From the NCBI GenBank assembly GCA_017471245.1, contig JAFUVB010000028.1:1-63931 (forward strand): a stretch of DNA of 63,931 nucleotides. Reading direction: 5' to 3'. Position 1 is the stretch's first letter, and every line of letters begins with the position of its first letter. This document shows positions 50,918-62,735 of the stretch, piece after piece. The position numbers were made by a program, and so were the translations under genes. The notes under the pieces were generated by a model. It made no database searches and was not told the origin of the DNA. It saw nothing but the letters and a program-made list of their open reading frames with translations. The DNA comes from Prevotella sp. GTDB lineage: Bacteria > Bacteroidota > Bacteroidia > Bacteroidales > Bacteroidaceae.

Positions 50918-52009
50918 CTACTCCTGCCGTTTCTCGCGCCGGATCAGGGCATTATAGATGTCGAGATAGTGATTAGTCATGGCTTGGAGCGAGAATATAG
51001 AGGCATAGTCGGTGCCAGTTAAGGGCGCATTTCCGCACGTCGTGATGAGGTGTTTCAGCTGTTGCGCGTTGCCAACAGTGAAGAGTCGCTCCTCGGGGAG
51101 CAGTTCGCGGAAGGCGGGAATGTTGCTTGCTATGACGGGAATACCGCACACGGCGGCTTCAATCACCGTAAGTCCGAAGCCCTCGGAGGTGGATGTTGAG
51201 ACGTAGAGATTGGCCATTTTCAGCAGCGACCCGATATCATGCCGCGCACCGGTGAATAGGATCCTGCCCTCCAAGTGCTGTTCTTTCGCCTCGCGCTGCA
51301 GCAGTTCGCGGCAGTCGCCGTCGCCCACAATCACTCCCTTATACTGCTCAGGCAGCAGGCTCATGGCACGTATGAACGTTGAAAAGTCCTTTTCCGGGCA
51401 TAGCCTGCCTATGGTGAGCACCACGAAATCGCCCTCTTTGAAGCCCATTTCGTGCCTGATAGCGGGGCGGGCGCTGAGCAACCGCTGCGTGTCGATGCCG
51501 TTGTATACCACCCGGAACCGCGGTCCGGGCTCTTCTCTGAGCCATTCCAAGAGTGACTGCTGCACGGTGTTGGAAACGGAAACCACGCTGTCGTATGCCC
51601 GATAGGCACGTCTGTCGATGCGCCGGAACCATTTGTGGTTGCGGCGCATGCCGAAAACGGAGTGCTCAGTGGTGACCCAGTGCGTGTTTTTCCTGCAGAT
51701 GGGCTTGATGAATGCCCCTATCAGTTGCGGAATGGTGTGGTTGGTGTGGATGATGTCGTAGTTTCCGCGGCGCGCCACGGTGATATATCTCCATGCTTTG
51801 AGCAGCGAAAAGCGCCCATTCATGCCCAGATTGATGAGGCTTACGCCGTTTTTGCGCAGCAAGTCGGCATATTGCTCATCGTCCTGACGGTGAACCATCA
51901 TCGTCACATCGTGCTCCCCGGTAGCGGCAATGGCGAGTGCCAGTTCCGTTATCAGCTTCTGCACCCCGCCGAAGGTGTCGCCAAACTCTTGGATGAACAG
52001 TATTTTCAT
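50918..52009 (-). CDS. Glycosyltransferase family 4
   Basis: A protein of 363 residues from the ATG at 52009 (MKILFIQEFGDTFGGVQKLI). The longer frame reaches 52270 but would overlap the next gene's coding region and has no start logic. GT-B features are LTIGRLCPEKDFSTFIRAMS, GARHDIGSLLKMANLYVSTS, and the E-x7-E site in TSEGFGLTVIEAAVCGIPVI. It lies two bases from the next gene in the locus. Sugar donor not readable. Confidence 0.9.
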   Translation of the reverse strand: MKILFIQEFGDTFGGVQKLITELALAIAATGEHDVTMMVHRQDDEQYADLLRKNGVSLINLGMNGRFSLLKAWRYITVARRGNYDIIHTNHTIPQLIGAFIKPICRKNTHWVTTEHSVFGMRRNHKWFRRIDRRAYRAYDSVVSVSNTVQQSLLEWLREEPGPRFRVVYNGIDTQRLLSARPAIRHEMGFKEGDFVVLTIGRLCPEKDFSTFIRAMSLLPEQYKGVIVGDGDCRELLQREAKEQHLEGRILFTGARHDIGSLLKMANLYVSTSTSEGFGLTVIEAAVCGIPVIASNIPAFRELLPEERLFTVGNAQQLKHLITTCGNAPLTGTDYASIFSLQAMTNHYLDIYNALIRREKRQE

Positions 52010-52011
52010 GT

Positions 52012-52914
52012 TTATAACCGGTTGAAGAGGATTCGCAGTTTTAACCAGAAGTCGTTTGAAACATTCCCCGTTGTGAAGCGGGAGCTCGAAAGCAGCCTCA
52101 TTTTCTTGCGCAGGCTGTGGCGATAGTTGGCAACCGTGTCCACAATATCTCGGTTTTCGGCACTCATATCGCCGCCGAAGCAGCGCAGCAGCTCTGTTGC
52201 CATGCGCTCGCGGTCGTGCTGGCGGCCGATGGTTTTCATCTCTTTCGCCCTCCGCATCCATATTTCCCATGCCGTGCGCTTATCTCCTATCTGGTTGTTT
52301 TCGTGCTGCCGGTAGAGGATATGGCTTTCTTCGTCGTAGCAGACATGCCCCGTGGCAAGGGCAACGGTGTATATCCAGAAGTCGTGGGCGAAGATGAACT
52401 GCGGCGGATGCGCCCGCAAGGCATCGCGCAAGGTGCGGTTGAACACCATCGTGCAGCCGGCAGTCATGCACCGGATCAGCCCTTGTGCCAGCGGCGTGGC
52501 ACGGTTTCCCTGATAGACAAGCCCTTCGCAAGCGCCGTTTTTGTAGTAATGCAGGTTGGAACCATAGAGATTGCGGCCTTCGCCCATGGTGTTGAGATGC
52601 GAAACGGCAGCTTTCAGCTTGTCGGGAAGCCATACGTCGTCCTGATCGCATAGTGCGTAGAAGTCGGCATCGGGTGCTTCACGCACAAGTTGCATGAAGC
52701 TTTCGGCCCACCCGATGTTATTTCCTTGCTTCCATTCAAGCAGTCCGCGCCTCTGATAATCATCCAAAATGGATTGCGTTGCGTCGCTGGATCCATCGTC
52801 TCTTACAAGCAGACGCACGTTAATCTCCTCTTGACGAATAACAGAATCAATCTGTTCGCGGAGGTATTTCTCCCCGTTGTAGGTCGACATCATTACTTGT
52901 ACGGTAGGTTCCAT
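52012..52914 (-). CDS. Glycosyltransferase family 2 (rhamnosyl-like)
   Basis: A protein of 300 residues. GT2 features: VQVMMSTYNGEKYLREQIDS, VRDDGSSDATQSILDDYQ, ADFYALCDQDDVWLPDKL (DxD), AGCTMVFNRTLRDALRAHP and the AHDFWIYTVA acceptor loop. Its form is that of rhamnosyl or similar transferases in O-antigen loci. It is two bases from the GT4 gene and close to the Wzz-Wzy fusion. Confidence 0.9.
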   Translation of the reverse strand: MEPTVQVMMSTYNGEKYLREQIDSVIRQEEINVRLLVRDDGSSDATQSILDDYQRRGLLEWKQGNNIGWAESFMQLVREAPDADFYALCDQDDVWLPDKLKAAVSHLNTMGEGRNLYGSNLHYYKNGACEGLVYQGNRATPLAQGLIRCMTAGCTMVFNRTLRDALRAHPPQFIFAHDFWIYTVALATGHVCYDEESHILYRQHENNQIGDKRTAWEIWMRRAKEMKTIGRQHDRERMATELLRCFGGDMSAENRDIVDTVANYRHSLRKKMRLLSSSRFTTGNVSNDFWLKLRILFNRL

Positions 52915-52964: not shown

Positions 52965-55058
52965 TCAGGAGTCGGATAATTGTTTTTCCGGCTCCTTACT
53001 TTTGGTTACGGCATAGTCTCGTAGATGACTTTGAAAGGAAAGAGTGATACGGTTTTGAGTCATCAGAAACAAGAAGAACACTAACTGCACAAAGAAAACC
53101 AGGCTGAGCATGATGTTTTCCTGATAGAACTGCATCAATAATATATATACAAAATAGGTGTAAAGGCAATGCCCCATTGCGCTTCCATTGCGGAACATCC
53201 TATATATCCACCCTGAAGCAGATCCATAGATAAATGCAAAAAATGCCACGCCTTTGTAGCCGAAGTCTTGATAGAAAGGCTGGAAGATGGTGTATACGTT
53301 GGTGGGAAGTGGCACCCAGACGAATTCCTGCAGTTTGGAATTCAGTTCAAAGTGTCCTATTCCGAATTTGTTGAGCAGCATATAGACCACCTCGAAGGTA
53401 TGTGAACCGAACTGTGAAGACAGGTCGCGCGTTACACGCTCGAAGGCAACAGGCGGAGAAAGCACGTAGATGGCAAAGAAATCAATAAAAGACATTTCCG
53501 TTCCTTCTGTGTCGGTTTGGTCGGTTCTTGCCAAATTCATGAAGAAGAAGAACACCACTATGACAGCACTCACTATGGCAATGGAGCGCATCTTGATGTG
53601 TCCTTTCTCGAAAAGCACAAACATGGTGGAGAGGAACATCAGCAGGATGCCTCCTTTCTCCATGATGGCAAAGCATGAAAGAATGTTTGCAAGGAACACG
53701 GTGATGAGCTGCCAACGAGGAATACGTGGATAAAGCCATAGCGCCACAAGCAATAAAGCCTGGTTGATGACAAGCGAATAGTTGAGAAAACCATAGTTGG
53801 TATCGCCAAAAACCGCAAACATCCTGATATTGTAAAGCAGGTTTTCAACATCAAACATCATGACGAATTTCATGATTTGATAAAGATACAGTGGCGTGAT
53901 GACCATGGAAATGGTATAGAGGATATTGAAAACAAGCAAGTTTGCGTTGATGGGGGCTGCAGTTGTCGTATGTTTTGGTGTAGAGGATTTAGGCAGGGTT
54001 ATGAAAGTAACTATCGAGGAAGCCACAAATATGGGAATCCACAATGCCAAACACGTATAGAAGCGATTGCCGAGCGGGTAGAGAACTCCTTTCTGTAACT
54101 GGAATAAAATCAAGAGTCCTACCCATATTGCGATGGTTATTACCCAAGGAGAAAAGCTGTCGGAAATCTTGAACCGCAGGCTTTCTGCTGTCGAATCCTT
54201 TCCCGCAATCCACCATTTGGTGAACACGATGGCTATAATGACGAATGCAAAAAGATAGCCCATGGCGTTTGGACTGACAGGTTTGGTAGGGACAGAAGCA
54301 TTACTGAGTGTTGAGAAAAACAGAGGCTGCTGACGGTAGAGAGCCTTGTCGCGGTAGTATTGTATACTCGCCTTGTTGTATATGTCGTATGCTTTGTTTT
54401 TCTCGTTTTCAAGGTATTCCTCTTCTGCAAGTATACTTTTCACAGAAATGTCCTCATGTGTATCAACAAAATCATCATATATTTTTTTCGCCCTTTCATA
54501 CCTTTTCTTTCCGTCAATCCATAGCTTTGAAGAGTGATTCAGTTCGTTTAGGGCGAACATTTTCTTCTGTTTAGCAATTTCTTCATGCAGTTTCACTCTA
54601 ACAGAGTCTGCCATCTGGGCTGCCACAACGGGATCTTGGTCGGTTACTTGGATAAGAAGAGTGGAGTATTTCTGTGAAAAATCATATTGGATATTGTCCT
54701 GAATAATCTGTATAATGTCTTTTTCACTTTCCCACCATGCATGGTGATGGTGTTCAATGAGATAGTCAGAATAGGTCTGTCTATAGTGAGGAACCATGAC
54801 AAGAGCCATCATTTCGGCAAACGATGTGGTGCTGAGAATCTGGCAATAGGTGTTCATATCCTCAATGCTGCTTACCGTGTTGGTCTTGAAATTCATCCAA
54901 CTGGCAATGTCACGCTCACCCACTCTCATGTTGTAAGAGACATATTCATTGGCAACTTTCACCTGCGCAGCATATTCCTTAGGTATGGAATACACCACGA
55001 TGAAAGCCAGCAAAATGGCGACCGAACATGTCAGAAGATACAACTTGAGGTGCTTCAT
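52965..55058 (-). CDS. Fusion of Wzz-like chain-length regulator and Wzy-like polysaccharide polymerase
   Basis: A continuous protein of 697 residues. Residues 1-290 are Wzz-like: membrane helix about 7-25, a periplasmic part ending TDQDPVVAAQMADSVRVKL, a coiled coil about 165-245, the proline-rich motif SVPTKPVSPNAMGYLF, and a second helix about 264-285. Residues about 300-670 form a multi-helix membrane protein with the oligosaccharide repeat unit polymerase signature PLPTNVYTIFQPFYQDFGYK. Normally Wzz and Wzy are separate proteins that cooperate in polymerisation and chain length. There is no internal stop or start break. A separate Wzz gene is next to it. Confidence 0.9.
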   Translation of the reverse strand: MKHLKLYLLTCSVAILLAFIVVYSIPKEYAAQVKVANEYVSYNMRVGERDIASWMNFKTNTVSSIEDMNTYCQILSTTSFAEMMALVMVPHYRQTYSDYLIEHHHHAWWESEKDIIQIIQDNIQYDFSQKYSTLLIQVTDQDPVVAAQMADSVRVKLHEEIAKQKKMFALNELNHSSKLWIDGKKRYERAKKIYDDFVDTHEDISVKSILAEEEYLENEKNKAYDIYNKASIQYYRDKALYRQQPLFFSTLSNASVPTKPVSPNAMGYLFAFVIIAIVFTKWWIAGKDSTAESLRFKISDSFSPWVITIAIWVGLLILFQLQKGVLYPLGNRFYTCLALWIPIFVASSIVTFITLPKSSTPKHTTTAAPINANLLVFNILYTISMVITPLYLYQIMKFVMMFDVENLLYNIRMFAVFGDTNYGFLNYSLVINQALLLVALWLYPRIPRWQLITVFLANILSCFAIMEKGGILLMFLSTMFVLFEKGHIKMRSIAIVSAVIVVFFFFMNLARTDQTDTEGTEMSFIDFFAIYVLSPPVAFERVTRDLSSQFGSHTFEVVYMLLNKFGIGHFELNSKLQEFVWVPLPTNVYTIFQPFYQDFGYKGVAFFAFIYGSASGWIYRMFRNGSAMGHCLYTYFVYILLMQFYQENIMLSLVFFVQLVFFLFLMTQNRITLSFQSHLRDYAVTKSKEPEKQLSDS

Positions 55059-55060
55059 TG

Positions 55061-56122
55061 TTATCTGCGAGAAATGATAGTGTCTCTGTGGTTGTAAGAT
55101 ATTAAGCCGACGCGCAGTACAAAACCAATGAGCACAAATGCTGCAAGAATGAACAATTTTGGAGTATTGCTATGCTTGACAGGAACGGTTGCTGACTGCA
55201 CGACAGTGAAAGCTGGTGTGCGTTCCTGCACTTTTGCCTTTGCCAACTGTAATTGTTCTGTCACCTGAGTGTATATGTTGTACTTCAATTGCATCTCGTT
55301 TTCCAGATCTTCTTGCTTGCTTCGGAACGATTGAAGCAGTAAGTCTTGGTTGGCATCGGAGTATGATGCATAGATTTGGCGTGCTTTCGTGTATTGAGCC
55401 TTCGCTTCTTCAAATAGTTTCTCCATGTAGCTCAGGTCATTTCTTGCCTTGTTGGTGCGGTAGTCTGTAATAAACATTTGCAGTCGGTTCTTTACAGAGT
55501 CGGCAATACAGGCTGCAATGAGCGGGTCTTGGTCGGTAATCTCAATTGTTATAACACTTGTCTTCTTGTCAACATTACAATTGATGTTACCGATGATACT
55601 TTGCATTACCTCATATTGCTGACGAGTTAGTCTGAAAGGGTTGATTTCTTTGCCTTCACCCTTGCTTCCCTTGTCTTTAAGCTTCTGGATAGTTTTGATA
55701 ATCCATAGCTTGGGATATGACCACCATGCCACTTTCTGCTTGTCTTTGATATATTCGTAATAGTTTGTGCTGATATTACCATCCATGGATTCAACACAAA
55801 TGGGAAAGAGACTGACTAAAAAGTCGGTTGATCTCATAAGATCTGGATAAATTTCTGGGAAGATTGCGTCGCTGCCACCGCCGAACTGCATGTCCATTCC
55901 TATCATGGAGGCAAGTGAGGATATGCTTGTTGACAGATTGGTACCGCTGGCAGTTTCTGGTGCCAGTACGACTCTTGCCTTGTAGATTCTTGGAATGCTG
56001 AATGCCACGATGATGCCGATCAGTCCGAAACCTATGCAAGTGAGCAGCAGCTTTTTCCAGTCATCCTTGATAACTGATAATAATTGGAGGCAGTTAATTT
56101 CTGTTTTCATTTCCTCTTTCAT
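55061..56122 (-). CDS. Chain-length determinant protein (Wzz family)
   Basis: A protein of 353 residues. N-terminal membrane helix about 29-46 (LLLTCIGFGLIGIIVAFSIP), a periplasmic domain with KARVVLAPETASGTNL and TDQDPLIAACIADSVKNRL, a coiled coil about 220-300, and a second helix at the C-terminus after PVKHSNTPKLF. This is the separate partner of the fusion gene downstream; the shared TDQDP motif suggests the two Wzz parts are homologous. The start overlaps the stop of the upstream GT2 gene by four bases. Confidence 0.9.
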   Translation of the reverse strand: MKEEMKTEINCLQLLSVIKDDWKKLLLTCIGFGLIGIIVAFSIPRIYKARVVLAPETASGTNLSTSISSLASMIGMDMQFGGGSDAIFPEIYPDLMRSTDFLVSLFPICVESMDGNISTNYYEYIKDKQKVAWWSYPKLWIIKTIQKLKDKGSKGEGKEINPFRLTRQQYEVMQSIIGNINCNVDKKTSVITIEITDQDPLIAACIADSVKNRLQMFITDYRTNKARNDLSYMEKLFEEAKAQYTKARQIYASYSDANQDLLLQSFRSKQEDLENEMQLKYNIYTQVTEQLQLAKAKVQERTPAFTVVQSATVPVKHSNTPKLFILAAFVLIGFVLRVGLISYNHRDTIISRR

Positions 56123-56970
56123 ATCTTTTCCTTTCTTTTTCTCTTTTTGATTCTTATCTTATATTGGATCTTATATCTTAAATACTTAAAAACCGAACCG
56201 TAGCCGATGGCACGAAGTGTTTGATAATGCTTGATATTGGATTTCAAAATCATCCGAAAATGAGCTATCCTGAAGGGTATGCTCAGCGAATTCTTGTCTT
56301 TGGCACCGACGACATTACCGGGGTGTTGCCGATAGAATACGTAAGAACCATCAATTCTTGATACTATTCCACCCGCTTTGAATACTGATAGCGTGAGCCA
56401 TTCATCGTGCATCTGGGCTTCAGAATAGGGGCGTACCATTACTTTTTTCGCTGCTTTATTGAATGCCATGGCACAGCCGGGAATGAAAGCAGTGGCTCCA
56501 CATTCGTTGAAGTTACTGATAAATTCGGGGAATATGCCTGCAAAGCTGAAAAAAGAATCAGAAATGAGGTGGAGTTCTTCATCCACAACGGTTAAATCGG
56601 AGTATACTATGGCAGGAATGTTTGGGTGTTCCTCCTCAATCTGTCTCATCCTTTGCATGTAAAACTGCATTTTATCACGGTGCCACACATCATCTTGGTC
56701 GCAAAAGAAGTAGTAGTCGCTATCTGTTTTCTCAATCAGACTGAAGAAATTGTCTTTTGCATTGTGGTGGCTTTCATATTCCAAGAGGATAATATTCTCA
56801 TGTTTTTTTGTGTATTCGTTGATAATATCTATACTGTTGTCGTTGGAACCGTCATCATGAATATAGAGCACCCAGTCTTGAAAAGACTGTTCAAGCAGGG
56901 AATCTATCAGCTGATGCAGATATCTGCTCCCATTATATGTCGCAAGCAGTATAGATGTTTTATCGTTCAT
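56119..56970 (-). CDS. Glycosyltransferase family 2
   Basis: A protein of 283 residues with the same plan as the GT2 enzyme at 52012: TSILLATYNGSRYLHQLIDS, IHDDGSNDNSIDIINEYT, DYYFFCDQDDVWHRDKMQ (DxD) and GCAMAFNKAAKKVM. The C-terminus is strongly basic (KIQYKIRIKKRKRKEKI), probably for membrane contact. Base composition is more AT-rich than in the GT4 and asnB genes of this locus, which may mean a separate origin. Confidence 0.88.
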   Translation of the reverse strand: MNDKTSILLATYNGSRYLHQLIDSLLEQSFQDWVLYIHDDGSNDNSIDIINEYTKKHENIILLEYESHHNAKDNFFSLIEKTDSDYYFFCDQDDVWHRDKMQFYMQRMRQIEEEHPNIPAIVYSDLTVVDEELHLISDSFFSFAGIFPEFISNFNECGATAFIPGCAMAFNKAAKKVMVRPYSEAQMHDEWLTLSVFKAGGIVSRIDGSYVFYRQHPGNVVGAKDKNSLSIPFRIAHFRMILKSNIKHYQTLRAIGYGSVFKYLRYKIQYKIRIKKRKRKEKI

Positions 56971-56977
56971 TATCTTG

Positions 56978-58330
56978 TCACTTCAACCATATTCCCCGTG
57001 CTTTGTTGTTTATTATTTTGTTGAATTGCACGATGTTCATTACCAATCCGGGGATGTTGATGAGCGACATGGCAATGAGCATTCCTACAACAGAGTGAAT
57101 GCAATGAATTGAAAGGAGAGCTAAAGGTATGAAAAGAATGGCAGCACATGTAGTCATGATGAGCTGAATATGTAGTGCTCCTATTCCGTTGAGAAAGTTG
57201 GAATAGCATAGACTGCTAATGAGTATCATCATGTAAATACCCATGCAGGCTGTTGTTTCTGTAGTGATTACGACTTCATCGTGTACCCAAATGTGATATA
57301 CAAATTGTGATATGCATATCATGAATATGATGGAGATAGAAACAACAGCCAGCACTTTCTCCATTCTTTTCTTTGAAATACGAATCCATTCCAGGTCTTT
57401 TCGGGCATAGGCATCTGTGGTTGCTGACCAAAAAGGAGTATTGACGACAATAAAGAGCGTTAGTACTATACTGAAGTAACGGTACGTGATTTGATATGGA
57501 TTCACCTCTTCAGGTGAAATCAGTTTTTGAATCAAAATGTTGGAAGTCATGAACAGTAACATTCCACATATTTGCAAAACGAAAAACTTCACACCCAATG
57601 TGAGAAGACTTTTGGCTACATGTTTATTGAAACAGCGGATGCTGGGGCGAAGTTGTGGGTATTTCTTCCAAAAAGTGTAAGGATAAGCCAACAGATATAC
57701 AATCAAGGGAGATGCCGTGTTTATGACGGATATTAAGAATAGAGAGTGTTTTCCAGAAATATAAACTATAAAGGTTCCAAAAAGAGCCAGTGTTTGCCCG
57801 ATTGTTATGAGCAGGTTGTTGACTGCTGGCAGTTGGAGCGCTAAATAAAAATTACTAATGAATTTGAAAATAAAAGTTATGCTAACGAACATTACACTAA
57901 CTGCAAGTATCATGTCTAAATCAGGAATGACCGACTCATCAACGTTAAAAAAGGCATAGTTGTTTATCAGTAGGATAAAGACATTGAGCAACAGTGAAGT
58001 AGGAATGATTATCAAAATAAGCATGAAGAAGGCGGACGATACTGCTTCTTGTGCCTTTTTGTAATCGTTATGTGCCAGATGTATGGTCAGTTGATTCCTC
58101 AATCCGTTGCCTAATCCTATGTCCATAGAGTCTATCCAAACCAGGATTGAACTGATAGTGAGCCAAACTCCATTCTTGTAAAGTCCAAGAGTGAAAAGAG
58201 TCAGTGGAACCATCAGATAGATAATCAAGGCAGACCATCCCTTGATCAAAAACGATGCCAAGATGTTCTTTCTTACCAAGGCAGTACGCTGATCGTTGCC
58301 TTTGATTCTATCGTATAGTTCGGAGAGCAT
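56978..58330 (-). CDS. Polysaccharide flippase (Wzx, MOP superfamily)
   Basis: A protein of 450 residues with about 12 membrane helices. The N-terminal region (GWSALIIYLMVPLTLFTLGL, then LTISSILVWIDSMDIGLGNG with LRNQLTIHLA) is a common Wzx pattern. It flips lipid-linked repeat units to the periplasmic side. Position between the export protein and the GT2 gene is normal for a Wzx/Wzy locus. AT-rich like its GT2 neighbour. Confidence 0.88.
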   Translation of the reverse strand: MLSELYDRIKGNDQRTALVRKNILASFLIKGWSALIIYLMVPLTLFTLGLYKNGVWLTISSILVWIDSMDIGLGNGLRNQLTIHLAHNDYKKAQEAVSSAFFMLILIIIPTSLLLNVFILLINNYAFFNVDESVIPDLDMILAVSVMFVSITFIFKFISNFYLALQLPAVNNLLITIGQTLALFGTFIVYISGKHSLFLISVINTASPLIVYLLAYPYTFWKKYPQLRPSIRCFNKHVAKSLLTLGVKFFVLQICGMLLFMTSNILIQKLISPEEVNPYQITYRYFSIVLTLFIVVNTPFWSATTDAYARKDLEWIRISKKRMEKVLAVVSISIIFMICISQFVYHIWVHDEVVITTETTACMGIYMMILISSLCYSNFLNGIGALHIQLIMTTCAAILFIPLALLSIHCIHSVVGMLIAMSLINIPGLVMNIVQFNKIINNKARGIWLK

Positions 58331-58339
58331 TTAAAAGGG

Positions 58340-60862
58340 TTATTTCAATATATTTGCCAGGGTTGCAATCATCGTGGCGATGCTGGCAACGCTGGTTCCG
58401 ATGGTTAGGATTTCTGCCAAAGTCTTGCCGTCGCGTATGGGTTTGCTGGGAACAACGATTTCGCAGCCGGGCTGTGGCTTCACACCGTGTCTCACTTTGT
58501 CCACCTTTCCATTCATGTAAATGATGATGGCATGCGACTTCTTTGCCCGGTTTCCGTATCCGCCGGCCTGATTCACATAATACTTTATACTCTTTCCTTG
58601 TTCAAAGCCTACGGTGTTGGGGTACATCACGTCGCCGGAAATCTTCACTGTGTTGGTGAACTGAGGCACGATGATGCGGTCGCCTTCACGCAATACGAGG
58701 TCTTCGTCGCTTCCGGGATGCGCAAGAGCTTTGTCAAGCTCGATGCCAACGCTATAAGTATCACCAATATCCAGCTTCTTTATGTCGAGTGTATCCTTGC
58801 CGCCACTCTGACTACTCAGCAGTTTCATCAGAGATTCTGCTCTCATCCTTTCTTCCAAGGTGCGCCTACGTTCCAGTCTGGCGCCCTTAACGTATGCCCG
58901 GTCGTTCACTCCACCTGCAGCAGCGATGACATCGCTGAGCCTTTGGTTCTTCTTGGCGAGTGTGTAAGTGCCGCCAAACATGACTTCTCCTTCAACCGTG
59001 ATATTCTGTTGCTTGTAATAGCCGGGGCTTTTACGCACATAAACCTCGTCGAAAGGCTCCAGTTTGAACCCTTGTTCGCCGTCGATCACGAATCCTTCTT
59101 TGAGTGCGAAGGTAAAGGTGCGTGCTATTATCGTGTCGGTAGTGACGGCTTTAGGGTCACTCAGTCGGCGCGCAACATCCACTTTCACCATCGAGGCGGT
59201 TTCTTTCAGTCCGCCGGCTTGCAGGATAAAGTCTTCAAGAGTCTCGTTGTCTGCATATTTGTAAATACCAGGATAGTTCACCTCGCCATGGATGGTGATG
59301 GTCTGTTCATGCATCATCTCTTTCTTGGTGGGGACGAACAGCACATCATTAGGTTTCAGTGGAATATCCGGGGTGGTGCCGTTCATGATACCGTCGATAT
59401 CGACGGGAACCACCTCAAGGGTCCTGTCGGCTTTCATTCTGTGCATCACGGCATGTGCAGTGAATGCTTCTTCGCGCACGCCTTCTGCATGTTCGATCAA
59501 AGACTTCACGCTGCTGATGTCTCCTCCCACTTGATACATGCCGGGACGGAACACGGCGCCTTTGACTTCTGCCATATTTGAGAAGCGCGGAAGGATGGAG
59601 TCAACACTGACGGAGTCTTCATCGAAGACGTGGAATGATGCCATATCGAACTCATCAACATTATAGACAGTGTAATCGCGACCGGTTTTCCGCACCACTC
59701 TCACCGATTTTGTATAGGCATCGCCAGTGAATCCGCCGCCGTATTTGAGCAATGTGCCGATGCTTTCATTCTTTCGCATCTCATAGAACATCGGTCGTTT
59801 CACCTTTCCTGTCAGGTTAACCAGACAGTCGTAGGCACCTACGATGATCATGTCGTTGTCGGCCAGTCTTACGTTTCCTGTCTGTTTGCCGTTGAGAATA
59901 TAGTCGTATACGTCAACGGTTGAGATGAGTTTGTTGTTGCGATATACTTTGATGTTGCGCAGCGTACCGATGTCGCTGATGCCGCCTGCCATGTACAAGG
60001 CGTTGAACACAGTGGCAAAGGCAGAGAGCGTATAGGTGCCCGGCACCTTCACCTCACCCATCACGTTCACCATGATGGTGCGAGTCTGCCCAACAGTGAG
60101 GCGAATCTGGCTGCTGCTGTATCTTGAACCCAGTGTTGAGCGCAGGTGACTATTGGCTTGCGCTACGGTCATTCCTGCCACTTGCACTGGTCCGTACCCT
60201 TCGATCGTCACTGTTCCGTCGGGTGAAACAGTGCTCTCAATAGTCTTTTGCGATGCACCGTAGATGTCGATATATACAGCATCTCCCGGACCGAGCCGGT
60301 AGTTCTGTGGCGTGGCGATGTTCATCGGCGGCTCAAAAGTGAGTTCCTTGTTGTTGAAGATATCGCGTCCGAACACTTTCCGTTTGTTCTTGTTCTGTTC
60401 GGCAAGCAGTTTTTCAAGCATGGCGGTGGAGTCTGGCATGATGTCGTTCAGCTCTCGTTGCATCAAGACATACTCCATGTTGGTGTCATCGTATACATTG
60501 CTTTGCGTTGCACTGGGATCCAGGTCTTTCATCCTATACGGCGACACATTGTCGTTGGTCTTTTTGCTGCCCGCATTGTTTTTTCGTGTGCGGTCATCTG
60601 TTGATCCTCCTGCCGATTCTCCAGAGATGGCTCCGAGTGCTTTCTCTTTTTGAAGGCGTTCAACTTTTTCTCTGACACGCCTCAGCTGTTGTGTGTCAAC
60701 ACCTCTCTGCATGAGTTTAATGACGATTTGCTGGTTTGAAGTTCCCGCTTCGCGCTCTTTCATGGCGAACTGTATGATCTGGTCGTCGGTCATTGACGAC
60801 TGTGCGTTCACGGATGCGGTGAACAGGAAGATGAGCAAAGTGAATATTATTGATTTCTTCAT
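58340..60862 (-). CDS. Polysaccharide export protein with poly-export and multiple SLBB domains (Wza-like)
   Basis: A protein of 840 residues, about twice a classic Wza. Signal peptide ends SVNAQ (about 21). A helical region with coiled-coil pattern follows (DTQQLRRVREKVERLQKEKA). The export domain begins at about 183 (NYRLGPGDAVYIDIYGASQK). About six SLBB domains follow, each marked by a G-x-V-x-x-P/G-G-x-Y motif: GEVKVPGTY, GKVKRPMFY, GAVFRPGMY, GEVNYPGIY, GEVMFGGTY, and GDVMYPNTV. A C-terminal helix may anchor it. It is the outer-membrane exit for the polymer. Confidence 0.93.
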   Translation of the reverse strand: MKKSIIFTLLIFLFTASVNAQSSMTDDQIIQFAMKEREAGTSNQQIVIKLMQRGVDTQQLRRVREKVERLQKEKALGAISGESAGGSTDDRTRKNNAGSKKTNDNVSPYRMKDLDPSATQSNVYDDTNMEYVLMQRELNDIMPDSTAMLEKLLAEQNKNKRKVFGRDIFNNKELTFEPPMNIATPQNYRLGPGDAVYIDIYGASQKTIESTVSPDGTVTIEGYGPVQVAGMTVAQANSHLRSTLGSRYSSSQIRLTVGQTRTIMVNVMGEVKVPGTYTLSAFATVFNALYMAGGISDIGTLRNIKVYRNNKLISTVDVYDYILNGKQTGNVRLADNDMIIVGAYDCLVNLTGKVKRPMFYEMRKNESIGTLLKYGGGFTGDAYTKSVRVVRKTGRDYTVYNVDEFDMASFHVFDEDSVSVDSILPRFSNMAEVKGAVFRPGMYQVGGDISSVKSLIEHAEGVREEAFTAHAVMHRMKADRTLEVVPVDIDGIMNGTTPDIPLKPNDVLFVPTKKEMMHEQTITIHGEVNYPGIYKYADNETLEDFILQAGGLKETASMVKVDVARRLSDPKAVTTDTIIARTFTFALKEGFVIDGEQGFKLEPFDEVYVRKSPGYYKQQNITVEGEVMFGGTYTLAKKNQRLSDVIAAAGGVNDRAYVKGARLERRRTLEERMRAESLMKLLSSQSGGKDTLDIKKLDIGDTYSVGIELDKALAHPGSDEDLVLREGDRIIVPQFTNTVKISGDVMYPNTVGFEQGKSIKYYVNQAGGYGNRAKKSHAIIIYMNGKVDKVRHGVKPQPGCEIVVPSKPIRDGKTLAEILTIGTSVASIATMIATLANILK

Positions 60863-60864
60863 AA

Positions 60865-61515
60865 TCAGAATTTTTTTCCGGTGATGATTTTTATTGCAGT
60901 TTTGATGAGAATGCTCGTGTCGAGTCGCAGGGTTCGAGTGTTCATATAGTGCAGATCCATGGAGAGTCTTTTCAGCATTTTCTCCATGGTATCAGTATAT
61001 CCGTTGTAGAGGGTTGCCTCCGACGTAAGTCCCGGGCGTATCTTGTAGAGCAGTTCATATCTTGCATCTTGTTGCATAATCATGTCAATGAAGTATTTCC
61101 TTTCAGGTCGTGGACCAACGAGCGACATGTCTCCCCGCAGCACATTCCACAATTGGGGCAGCTCGTCGAGATGATGGCTTCTGAGGAATATCTCTAATGG
61201 GGTGGAGTTGGTGCTGTCGCACGTTGCCACCAACTGCGGAACGCTGTCCTCAATCATCGTGCTCATGGTGCGGAACTTATAGATGGTGAACGGCTTCCCA
61301 CCTCGTCCGATGCGCTCTTGCCTGAAAAGCACATTTCCATTGTGTTGCCTCTTGATGAGCAGTGCTATGGCAGCGATGAGCGGCGACAGCAACAGAATAC
61401 CTGCCAGTGAGCATGTGATGTCGGCAATTCTCTTCACTGCTCTCTGCCAGACTTTCATTCCGTCGGTTGTCGATATGTCGTAGTGCTCCTTTGCTATATG
61501 ACTTTTCTCTTTCAT
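60865..61515 (-). CDS. Polyprenyl-phosphate hexose-1-phosphate transferase (initiating sugar transferase)
   Basis: A protein of 216 residues. The N-terminal part has a membrane segment about 33-53 (ITCSLAGILLLSPLIAAIAL), then the family signatures VLFRQERIGRGGKPFTIYKF with RTM, RSHHLDELPQLWNVLRGDMS, LVGPRPERKYFI and RPGLTSEATLYNG. It is a small member of the WbaP/PglC group, which loads the first sugar phosphate onto undecaprenyl phosphate. It is the first gene of the locus. No UpxY/UpxZ-like regulators precede it. Confidence 0.92.
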   Translation of the reverse strand: MKEKSHIAKEHYDISTTDGMKVWQRAVKRIADITCSLAGILLLSPLIAAIALLIKRQHNGNVLFRQERIGRGGKPFTIYKFRTMSTMIEDSVPQLVATCDSTNSTPLEIFLRSHHLDELPQLWNVLRGDMSLVGPRPERKYFIDMIMQQDARYELLYKIRPGLTSEATLYNGYTDTMEKMLKRLSMDLHYMNTRTLRLDTSILIKTAIKIITGKKF

Positions 61516-61682: not shown

Positions 61683-62080
61683 GGGGTTGACTGGATTTGA
61701 CAGCGGGTTGGAATGGTATGTAAGCACGCGGAGCGTCGGCTGTTTGCTCCTAAATATCAGCGGTCAAAAAATTAATTGGCAACAATGAGTATGCTCTCGC
61801 TGCCTGATCGAAGCACAGTAGATCATGAGCTTAATTCTGCCACCAGGTGACAGAACGGGACGTCGCTCCGAGGATGTTGTTCCGAATCTGAGGATCAAGC
61901 GGCGCAGGTAAAATCGGAAATAGCCGTTGTCAGGCCTCGATGCATCGGTGAAATTCAGAGGATAAGGCATCAGTTGGTGGTCCAGGTCTTGCTGTTGCAC
62001 GAAAACCGAAGGCTGGAATAAGCGTGTAGAAAGCGTATGGTTTCCCTGTTTGGACGAGGGTTCGACTCCCTCCAGCTCCA
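61683..62080 (+). ncRNA. ssrA: tmRNA copy 1 (ssrA)
   Basis: A 398-base transfer-messenger RNA. The 5-prime end GGGGTTG pairs with CAGCTCC near the 3-prime end (62073-62079), giving a seven-base acceptor stem with the alanine identity G3-U70 wobble. The T-arm is GAGGG-TTCGACT-CCCTC. The tag frame at 61778-61807 reads GNNEYALAA and ends in TGA. The discriminator A is at 62080; CCA is not encoded. It frees stalled ribosomes and tags the nascent protein for breakdown. Confidence 0.95.
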
Positions 62081-62127
62081 CAGACATATACTGATTTCCA
62101 GTATTTTACAGAAAAACCTCCCCCAAA

Positions 62128-62286: not shown

Positions 62287-62683
62287 GGGGGTGACTGGAT
62301 TTGACGACAAGCCGAAATGGTACGCAAGCATGTGGAGTGAAGACTGTGTTCTCTTAAATCAAGTCGGTCGAAAAATTAATTGGCAACAATGAGTATGCTC
62401 TCGCTGCCTAATCGAAGTATAGTAGATTAAGAGCTTAATTCCGTCACAAGGTGACAGAACGAGACGTCGCTCCGAGGATGTTGTTCCGAATCCAGAGATT
62501 AAGCGGCGCAGGTTAAATCGGAAATAATCAGATTGAGCCTCGACAATCTGGTGAATAATTAGAGGATAAGGATGCAGTTGGTGGCTCAGGTCTTGCTGCA
62601 TCACGAAAACAAAGGCTGAGATAAGCATGTAGAAAACGTATGGTTTCCTTGTGCGGACCGGAGTTCGATTCTCCGCACTTCCA
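62287..62683 (+). ncRNA. ssrA: tmRNA copy 2 (ssrA paralogue)
   Basis: A second full tmRNA of 397 bases. The 5-prime GGGGGTG pairs with CACTTCC (62676-62682), again with G3-U70 plus an adjacent G-U. The T-arm is CGGAG-TTCGATT-CTCCG, different from copy 1 but with compensating pairs. The tag at 62382-62411 is again GNNEYALAA but ends in TAA. Long blocks around the tag and in the pseudoknot region are nearly identical to copy 1; both ends and the outer helices differ. Compensated differences suggest a functional gene rather than a decaying copy. Confidence 0.92.
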
Positions 62684-62692
62684 CCGAAACAA

Positions 62693-62735
62693 GCCGAATA
62701 ATGTTTGGATTGCATTATTCGGTTTAGTCATTTTT
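62693..62735 (+). terminator. Terminator after tmRNA copy 2
   Basis: CCGAATAATG (62694-62703) pairs with CATTATTCGG (62713-62722), followed by TTTAGTCATTTTT. Confidence 0.8.

Follow-up and report, generated by a model that had tools for sequence, protein, structure and literature searches.

A Natural Wzz-Wzy Fusion in Prevotella and Related Genera, with a Wzz Membrane Helix Very Probably in Place of the First Helix of the Polymerase

Here we describe a gene of Prevotella sp. (GenBank assembly GCA_017471245.1, contig JAFUVB010000028.1) in which a Wzz-like chain-length regulator and a Wzy-like polysaccharide polymerase are naturally joined in one protein. The window, that is, the whole stretch of DNA analyzed, is 63,931 nucleotides long. 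As a preliminary description made from the sequence had claimed, both parts are encoded in a single frame of 697 codons without internal stop. The frame lies on the minus strand at 52965-55058; the opposite (plus) strand across this interval is riddled with stops. The same architecture was found in 39 other loci, and in all of them the first membrane helix of the polymerase is absent. The second transmembrane helix (TM2) of the Wzz part very probably stands in its place. The fused gene, its parts, and the free Wzz gene beside it are as follows.

52965..55058, minus strand: fused Wzz-Wzy gene, 697 codons and stop, one open frame
54270..55058, minus strand: Wzz-like (polysaccharide co-polymerase, PCP) half, residues 1-263, first transmembrane helix (TM1) and periplasmic domain, from profile-profile and structure matches
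54987..55055, minus strand: Wzz TM1, residues 2-24, from hydropathy and model
54195..54266, minus strand: Wzz TM2, residues 265-288, at the site of the first helix of split Wzy
54150..54194, minus strand: linker, residues 289-303, predicted to be cytoplasmic; about here the co-variation signal changes partner
52968..54149, minus strand: Wzy (TIGR04370) half, residues 304-697, with ten long helices, read as membrane helices
53253..53312, minus strand: conserved PLPTNVYTIFQPF stretch, residues 583-602
55061..56122, minus strand: free Wzz of 353 amino acids, named Wzz2 here (Pfam Wzz, E 1.6e-7)

The Wzz-Like Half

The structural model of the whole fused chain (pLDDT 87.4, pTM 0.84) gives the Wzz half a helix at residues 2-24 (TM1), two long helices (143-200 and 207-242), a proline-rich stretch, and a helix at 265-288 (TM2), in agreement with the two membrane helices and proline-rich stretch first noticed in the sequence. 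Residues 1-292 gave structure matches to KpsE, Wzc, WzzE, and WzzB, full-length in the case of WzzE and WzzB. Sequence searches of solved structures returned a weak KpsE match for the Wzz half (E 0.0032), a FepE match for Wzz2, and no match for the Wzy half. KpsE serves ABC-transporter pathways.

In profile-profile comparison, the Wzz half matched the family of the free Wzz2 over 281 columns (E 1.6e-43), and Wzz2 itself scores 32 bits against Pfam Wzz (cut-off 25.5), which provides homology to a protein above the cut-off. The fused protein scores below it (PF02706, residues 2-82, 14.5 bits vs. 25.5, E 0.044), and for this reason we class the half as Wzz-like by fold and homology and not as a member of PF02706. 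The same Pfam model, at E <= 0.01, matched 12 of the 64 rows of alignment A2, 48 of which have a Wzz part. The modeled fold, with TM1 and TM2 around a helical periplasmic domain, is that expected of a PCP. A PCP-1 protein has nothing after TM2; here a polymerase follows, which makes the protein a fusion and not a plain PCP-1.

The Wzy Half and Its Missing First Helix

TIGR04370 matched residues 296-665 over profile positions 3-396 of 396 (E 1.6e-55, 188.7 bits vs. a cut-off of 40). The concern that residues from about 300 to 697 might align to something other than a polymerase was not borne out: this half belongs to the family over the full model, and its polymerase function is predicted on that basis. 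In alignment A2, TIGR04370 matches 50 of 64 rows, exactly as many as contain a Wzy part. The signature PLPTNVYTIFQPFYQDFGYK is found in the fused protein, and P583, T586, N587, and P594 are invariant in 15 fused rows (alignment A1), as are their counterparts in 29 split rows (alignment A6).

The preliminary description was right about the polymerase family and the signature, but took the Wzy part to be complete, and its first membrane helix is missing. Here [SAP]PW is our name for a motif common to fused and split proteins just past the junction, and Wzz' is the Wzz encoded as a separate gene in split loci and homologous to the fused Wzz half. All 42 split Wzy tested start with a hydrophobic helix whose end lies 3-6 residues ahead of [SAP]PW; L127, where a break divides the split Wzy between two frames (L127:5793-7077), was excluded from this count and from the trees. 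The best hydropathy in the 24 residues before the motif is at most 0.52 in 40 of 40 fusions versus 1.86-3.19 in the split proteins, and the best window within 60 residues ends, in the fusions, 15-30 residues ahead of [SAP]PW. Sequence and spacing after a conserved F and the proline-rich stretch identify this upstream hydrophobic segment as Wzz TM2, the median spacing being 17 residues in fused proteins, 20 in split Wzz', and 18 in Wzz2 (anchor located in 38 of 40, 36 of 42, and 77 of 81, respectively).

Four distant free Wzy proteins (L064, L065, L153, L165) also start, as judged by eye, with a hydrophobic helix, and so the fusion seems to have lost the first Wzy helix; a Wzy with its own first helix is probably the older state. 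The family score is unaffected by this loss because TIGR04370 starts after the first helix, its match beginning only at residue 18-21, past that helix, in the five split Wzy scanned. We consider it highly probable that Wzz TM2 stands in place of the first helix of Wzy (Wzy TM1). End-to-end joining of two complete proteins is ruled out by the absent helix.

Averaged hydropathy shows split Wzy and the fused Wzy half to have twelve peaks each, with a weak extra one at residues 579-595 of the fused protein, and the model places ten long helices after the linker. The peaks at 524-540 (246-262 in split Wzy) and 579-595 were judged non-spanning, since otherwise the large conserved loop would not lie outside. 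With this loop outside, the linker would lie inside, and a free Wzy would consequently start outside, with its first helix running inward like Wzz TM2. The predicted direction, periplasm to cytoplasm, is the same for the two helices, and the swap would thus keep the topology of the remainder.

Fused and Split Loci

The window's own genome was one of 200 examined from the genus; 32 of the 200 had a match at E < 1e-100 and the rest weaker matches or none. Fifteen of these 32 loci are fused, 13 have separate neighboring genes, and four have Wzx between the parts. A scan of contigs of named genomes, with an alignment of the 15 fused proteins as query, confirmed 98 stretches; from the best 80 of these, 79 loci were retained, of which 36 are fused and 43 split. 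The split genes are usually adjacent, but six loci have Wzx between them (L133-L137, L142); in L082 the contig end falls inside Wzz'. Fused genes are present in the isolates Xylanibacter ruminicola Ga6B6 (L097), Prevotella sp. tc2-28 (L102), Hoylesella loescheii An865 (L101), and Marseilla massiliensis An824 (L143), and in the single-contig genome G044. Among 301 genomes of the family, three more GTDB genera (by code) have the fusion (G386, G248, G490). The domain order of the window thus recurs in 39 more loci (36 from the contig scan and three from the family; 40 with the window) and, judged by GTDB code, spans at least four genera, with split versions alongside. Counts of the different sets are not additive because many genomes are common to the unnamed and named ones, and the fused loci include near-copies (L075/L076, L080/L081, L138/L139, L090/L146).

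The window's genome is in 114 contigs, a condition in which an assembly or sequencing error might remove a stop codon, and such an error near residue 290 had been named as a possible source of the fusion. The 39 other fused loci, isolates and a single-contig genome included, rule this out, leaving it a negligible probability. The closest fused relative found, L066, aligns by eye without gaps through the junction, and 38 more loci are fused as well.

Among 344 genomes of the order, some of them from the same family or genus, a full-length match at E <= 1e-10 was found only in the window's own. TIGR04370 scored over the cut-off in 52 of 345 genomes of the phylum, in a frame of more than 600 codons only in the window's own, the next having 580 codons (G1016). 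In these 345 genomes, frames of 601-1874 codons hold another ten matches that score below the cut-off, and independent fusions may exist elsewhere.

A free Wzz gene stands beside all 40 fusions, directly upstream in nearly all; the one in the window, Wzz2, had already been noticed. One fused locus (L125/L057, probably one contig) has two free Wzz genes beside the fusion.

Selection and Origin of the Fusion

In the comparison with L066, the 45 codons at the junction have a ratio of nonsynonymous to synonymous substitution rates (dN/dS) of 0.19, at a dS of 1.7, near saturation, a situation found in several pairs. The ratio ranges from 0.07 to 0.23 in the Wzz half (defined in six of ten pairs), from 0.06 to 0.32 in TM2 plus linker (eight of ten), and from 0.03 to 0.18 in the Wzy half (nine of ten). 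In the pairs with defined dN/dS, these sequence comparisons indicate purifying selection on the two halves and on the junction.

In L067 and L070, Wzz' and Wzy lie in one frame, with a single stop codon between them and an ATG immediately after it. The tree of Wzz parts shows Wzz' and Wzz2 to be paralogues, on opposite sides of a branch with a Shimodaira-Hasegawa-like approximate likelihood ratio test (SH-aLRT) support of 100. With Wzz2 as root, loci that have Wzx between the parts (together with L132) diverge first, followed by split and fused ones, and 36 of the 40 fused rows form one group (SH-aLRT 95). This tree implies four changes of state, at least two of which are forced by starred branches in the careful tree; the Wzy tree implies two to three. 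All fused rows formed one group in 0% of 200 bootstrap trees of the careful runs, and approximately unbiased (AU) tests on quick trees did not reject a single fused group (p 0.48 and 0.27). The rooting is unsure and the outgroup branches are long. Exchange of halves blurs the count as well, and fusions and splits may have occurred once or several times.

Co-variation of the Two Halves with Their Neighbors

We compared pairwise gene distances among 24 fused loci with all five genes, near-copies dropped. The Wzz half correlated with Wzz2 (r 0.90) and the Wzy half with the flippase Wzx (0.78), while the two halves of the same protein correlated at 0.26, and the polysaccharide export protein (OPX) with Wzz2 at 0.42. 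Given OPX, the correlation between Wzz half and Wzz2 was still 0.90, reached in none of 1000 permutations, and that between halves dropped to 0.15, with 94 of 1000 permutations as high. In 34 fused loci with four genes the corresponding values were 0.87 (Wzz half and Wzz2), 0.75 (Wzy half and Wzx), and 0.28 (between halves), or 0.82, 0.59, and 0.14 by rank; the ranking of the three was kept in all subsets tried and in the jackknife. All genes of 19 split loci correlate with each other (0.89-0.94; 0.61-0.71 with Wzx), and since they go together, the decoupling is seen in the fused group.

Along the protein, every sliding window in residues 2-287 tracks Wzz2; those in 300-674 track Wzx, except 348-373 (Wzz2) and a tie at 483-506, and the two windows across the linker are ties. 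The break in co-variation lies inside the fused gene, not between it and Wzz2. In its co-variation the fused gene behaves as two modules, a Wzz half that goes with Wzz2 and a polymerase half that goes with the flippase. In the mosaic L109, the Wzz half is closest to that of L144 (74%) and the Wzy half to that of L102 (86%), and the change falls near residue 250, before TM2. L109 hinted that TM2 travels with the polymerase half, an idea not borne out by the whole set. Gene conversion between the Wzz half and Wzz2 was also considered as the cause of co-variation, and rejected.

Gene Cluster and Other Features of the Window

The fused gene lies in a polysaccharide cluster with all genes in one direction: priming transferase, OPX, Wzx, GT2, Wzz2, fused gene, GT2, and GT4. 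Wzz2 is upstream of the fused gene, with a gap of two bases. The remaining genes of the cluster are listed below.

60865..61515, minus strand: priming sugar-phosphate transferase (Bac_transf)
58340..60862, minus strand: OPX, with Poly_export and SLBB domains
56978..58330, minus strand: Wzx-like flippase (MatE), which pairs with the Wzy half in the distance correlations
56119..56970, minus strand: GT2 glycosyltransferase of the same cluster
52012-52914, same direction: GT2 beyond the fused gene
50918-52270, same direction: GT4, listed after this GT2

Pfam Wzz has five matches at E <= 1 in the window's genome, including Wzz2 and the fusion. Two others, a match above the cut-off in an 811-codon frame (match at G000:C1:18108-18353) and one just below it in an 867-codon frame (match at G000:C20:14686-14967), are probably Wzc-like proteins of other polysaccharide clusters; the fifth is doubtful (E 0.36).

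The window also holds two tandem full-length tmRNA (ssrA) genes on the plus strand (61683-62083 and 62287-62686), with 83% identity over 241 bases and the tag GNNEYALAA in both. Among 60 genomes of the genus, two tmRNA matches over the cut-off were found only in the window's genome (in tandem) and in G025 (on two contigs). The listed open frames at 61764-62087 and 62359-62715 (minus strand) run antisense through both tmRNA genes and are probably not genes. A tmRNA gene lies within about 10 kb of a Wzz cluster in the window and in several other genomes of the genus (G027:C6:57551, G018:C16:9935, G043:C15:252064, and others), and ssrA may mark the site of the Wzz gene cluster.

Discussion

A related published object is the WzzE-WzyE complex, which PMC10030265 describes as about eight WzzE per WzyE, the latter sitting in the membrane lumen of the ring. 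According to that paper, the cavity of about 57 Å accommodates one Wzy of about 50 Å, and the authors consider the idea of Wzz as a scaffold for several Wzy to be invalidated by their data. Enterobacterial Wzz TM2 faces inward to the cavity where Wzy sits, and swapping TM2 between two Wzz proteins upset length control, a TM1 swap hardly doing so (PMC10030265 and the review PMC12004945). The map obtained with separate proteins lacked Wzy, which the authors partly blame on dissociation of the complex on the grid (PMC10030265).

The 1:1 ratio that a covalent fusion had been supposed to fix does not follow: a free Wzz stands beside all 40 fusions, the published ratio is about 8:1 (PMC10030265), and the co-variation of the Wzz half is far stronger with Wzz2 than with the polymerase half of the same protein. 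Mixed oligomers, already proposed as a possibility, still stand as one. Eight fused polymerases would not fit in the ring lumen, and together with the free Wzz at every fusion this favors a mixed ring of fusion and Wzz2, which we regard as somewhat likely. About one fusion per ring has, in our view, an even chance. The proposed sequence of events would be as follows. Adjacent Wzz and Wzy genes were most likely joined through loss of the Wzz stop and, along with it, of the codons for the first Wzy helix. Wzz TM2 would have taken over the place of the lost helix, with the topology of the remainder kept. The Wzz half of one fusion would be built into a ring whose remaining subunits are free Wzz2; the ring would hold the attached polymerase inside, where it would add repeat units supplied by Wzx, and would limit chain length. 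Taken as a whole, natural fusion, helix replacement, and a mixed ring with Wzz2 form the best explanation, one that we consider fairly probable. The more specific version, in which TM2 is the first helix of the polymerase and shows where TM2 docks on Wzy, one fusion enters each Wzz2 hetero-ring, and the modules, the Wzz half tied to its ring partner Wzz2 and the polymerase half to the flippase, recombine at or near the linker, is tentative, its chance lying a little under even.

A homo-oligomer is unlikely. It would have one polymerase per Wzz subunit, with the polymerases around or outside the ring and Wzz2 acting separately; the covalent link sets 1:1 within the protein, and two competing Wzz proteins are known from Shigella flexneri (review PMC12004945). 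However, the dimensions of the published cavity and the invalidated scaffold (PMC10030265), as well as the co-variation of Wzz half and Wzz2 (r about 0.9), argue otherwise. Neutral joining of neighbor genes, with parts functioning as when separate and without consequence, agrees with the adjacency of the same pair in relatives, some with one in-frame stop between them (L067, L070), and with trees that require only two to four state changes. Loss of the first Wzy helix is nevertheless a structural change, beyond mere joining, and purifying selection acts on halves and junction where dN/dS is defined, so that we find it quite unlikely. Improbable to a higher degree is that the fusion is cleaved after synthesis, or that an internal start yields free Wzy, the fusion merely coupling production: among the 30 codons that surround the point where the Wzy match starts, 10 of 39 fused loci have an in-frame ATG but the other 29 have none, though some have GTG or TTG, and the product would be without the first helix present in all 42 split homologues tested.

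One more alternative is that the correlation between Wzz half and Wzz2 reflects linkage alone: Wzz2 and the Wzz half would be inherited as one block, the Wzy half and Wzx as another that is swapped along with the repeat unit. In 30 of 34 loci the next gene downstream of the fusion is Wzx, nearly all loci have Wzz2 immediately upstream, and the mosaic L109 changes near residue 250. Yet OPX adjoins Wzz2 in 19 of 24 loci with a correlation of only 0.42, and the breaks lie within a single gene instead of at the boundary of the Wzz2 and fused genes. We see linkage alone as a serious possibility, clearly short of even.

Several observations weigh against the mixed ring with a replaced helix that we prefer. 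Of the 43 split loci, 42 have both free Wzz genes as well; Wzz2 is therefore neither peculiar to fusions nor a response to fusion. Wzz2 and the Wzz half adjoin on the DNA, and a jointly inherited block could give part of their correlation; the rank correlation between Wzy half and Wzx fell as low as 0.45 after thinning. TM2 over all rows co-varies with Wzz2 (rho 0.55) and not with Wzx (0.16), and for that reason is not yet like a Wzy helix in its pattern of change; a crossover before TM2 was seen in L109 only. The topology hinges on our judgement of the weak peaks at 524-540 and 579-595 as non-spanning. TM2 and Wzy were compared by sequence, not coordinates, and the docking place suggested for TM2 is to be read in that light. 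Foldseek gave the PCP matches modest TM-scores, not above 0.69 by target, and the 8:1 complex, here an analogy, belongs to enterobacterial common antigen and not to Bacteroidota.

In the literature searched, with subscription journals mostly outside its coverage, no natural Wzz-Wzy fusion was found, consistent with the preliminary description, and the available parts of PMC10030265, PMC12004945, PMC13432762, and PMC11340318 name none. The parts are of known kinds; the fused architecture and the helix replacement appear to be new. The field still asks how and in what ratio Wzz and Wzy come together, and by what means a Wzz ring stops the polymerase. A natural covalent Wzz-Wzy with a separate free Wzz would be a sturdier object for structure work, and as the fusion predicts the position of TM2 on the polymerase, the debated arrangement of both parts becomes testable. 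Removal of one gene would test 8:1 versus 1:1, and relatives in which the genes are split provide natural controls.

The fused protein can be set beside several known systems. It shares with PCP-1 proteins (Wzz; WzzE, WzzB, FepE) two membrane helices, a long helical periplasmic domain, and a proline-rich stretch before TM2, but its chain continues past TM2 as a polymerase and it scores under the Pfam Wzz cut-off. The PCP fold of residues 1-292 is also common to PCP-2 (Wzc) and KpsE; Wzc, however, carries a cytoplasmic kinase (PMC10030265), whereas in the fusion a polymerase follows. With TIGR04370 Wzy, it shares the full-length profile match and the conserved stretches common to split relatives, and differs in that Wzz TM2 occurs where its own first membrane helix would be. 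Split Wzz'-Wzy pairs, such as those of Hoylesella oralis (L128) and Prevotella lacticifex (L100), have a homologous Wzz' and Wzy in a similar cluster with Wzz2, OPX, and Wzx, but as two genes, and their Wzy retains the first helix. In WzzE-WzyE of enterobacterial common antigen the same two kinds of protein cooperate, with Wzz TM2 inward toward Wzy, as two separate proteins at about 8:1 (PMC10030265); in Prevotella and some relatives they form one covalent protein accompanied by a free Wzz, at a ratio that may be similar.
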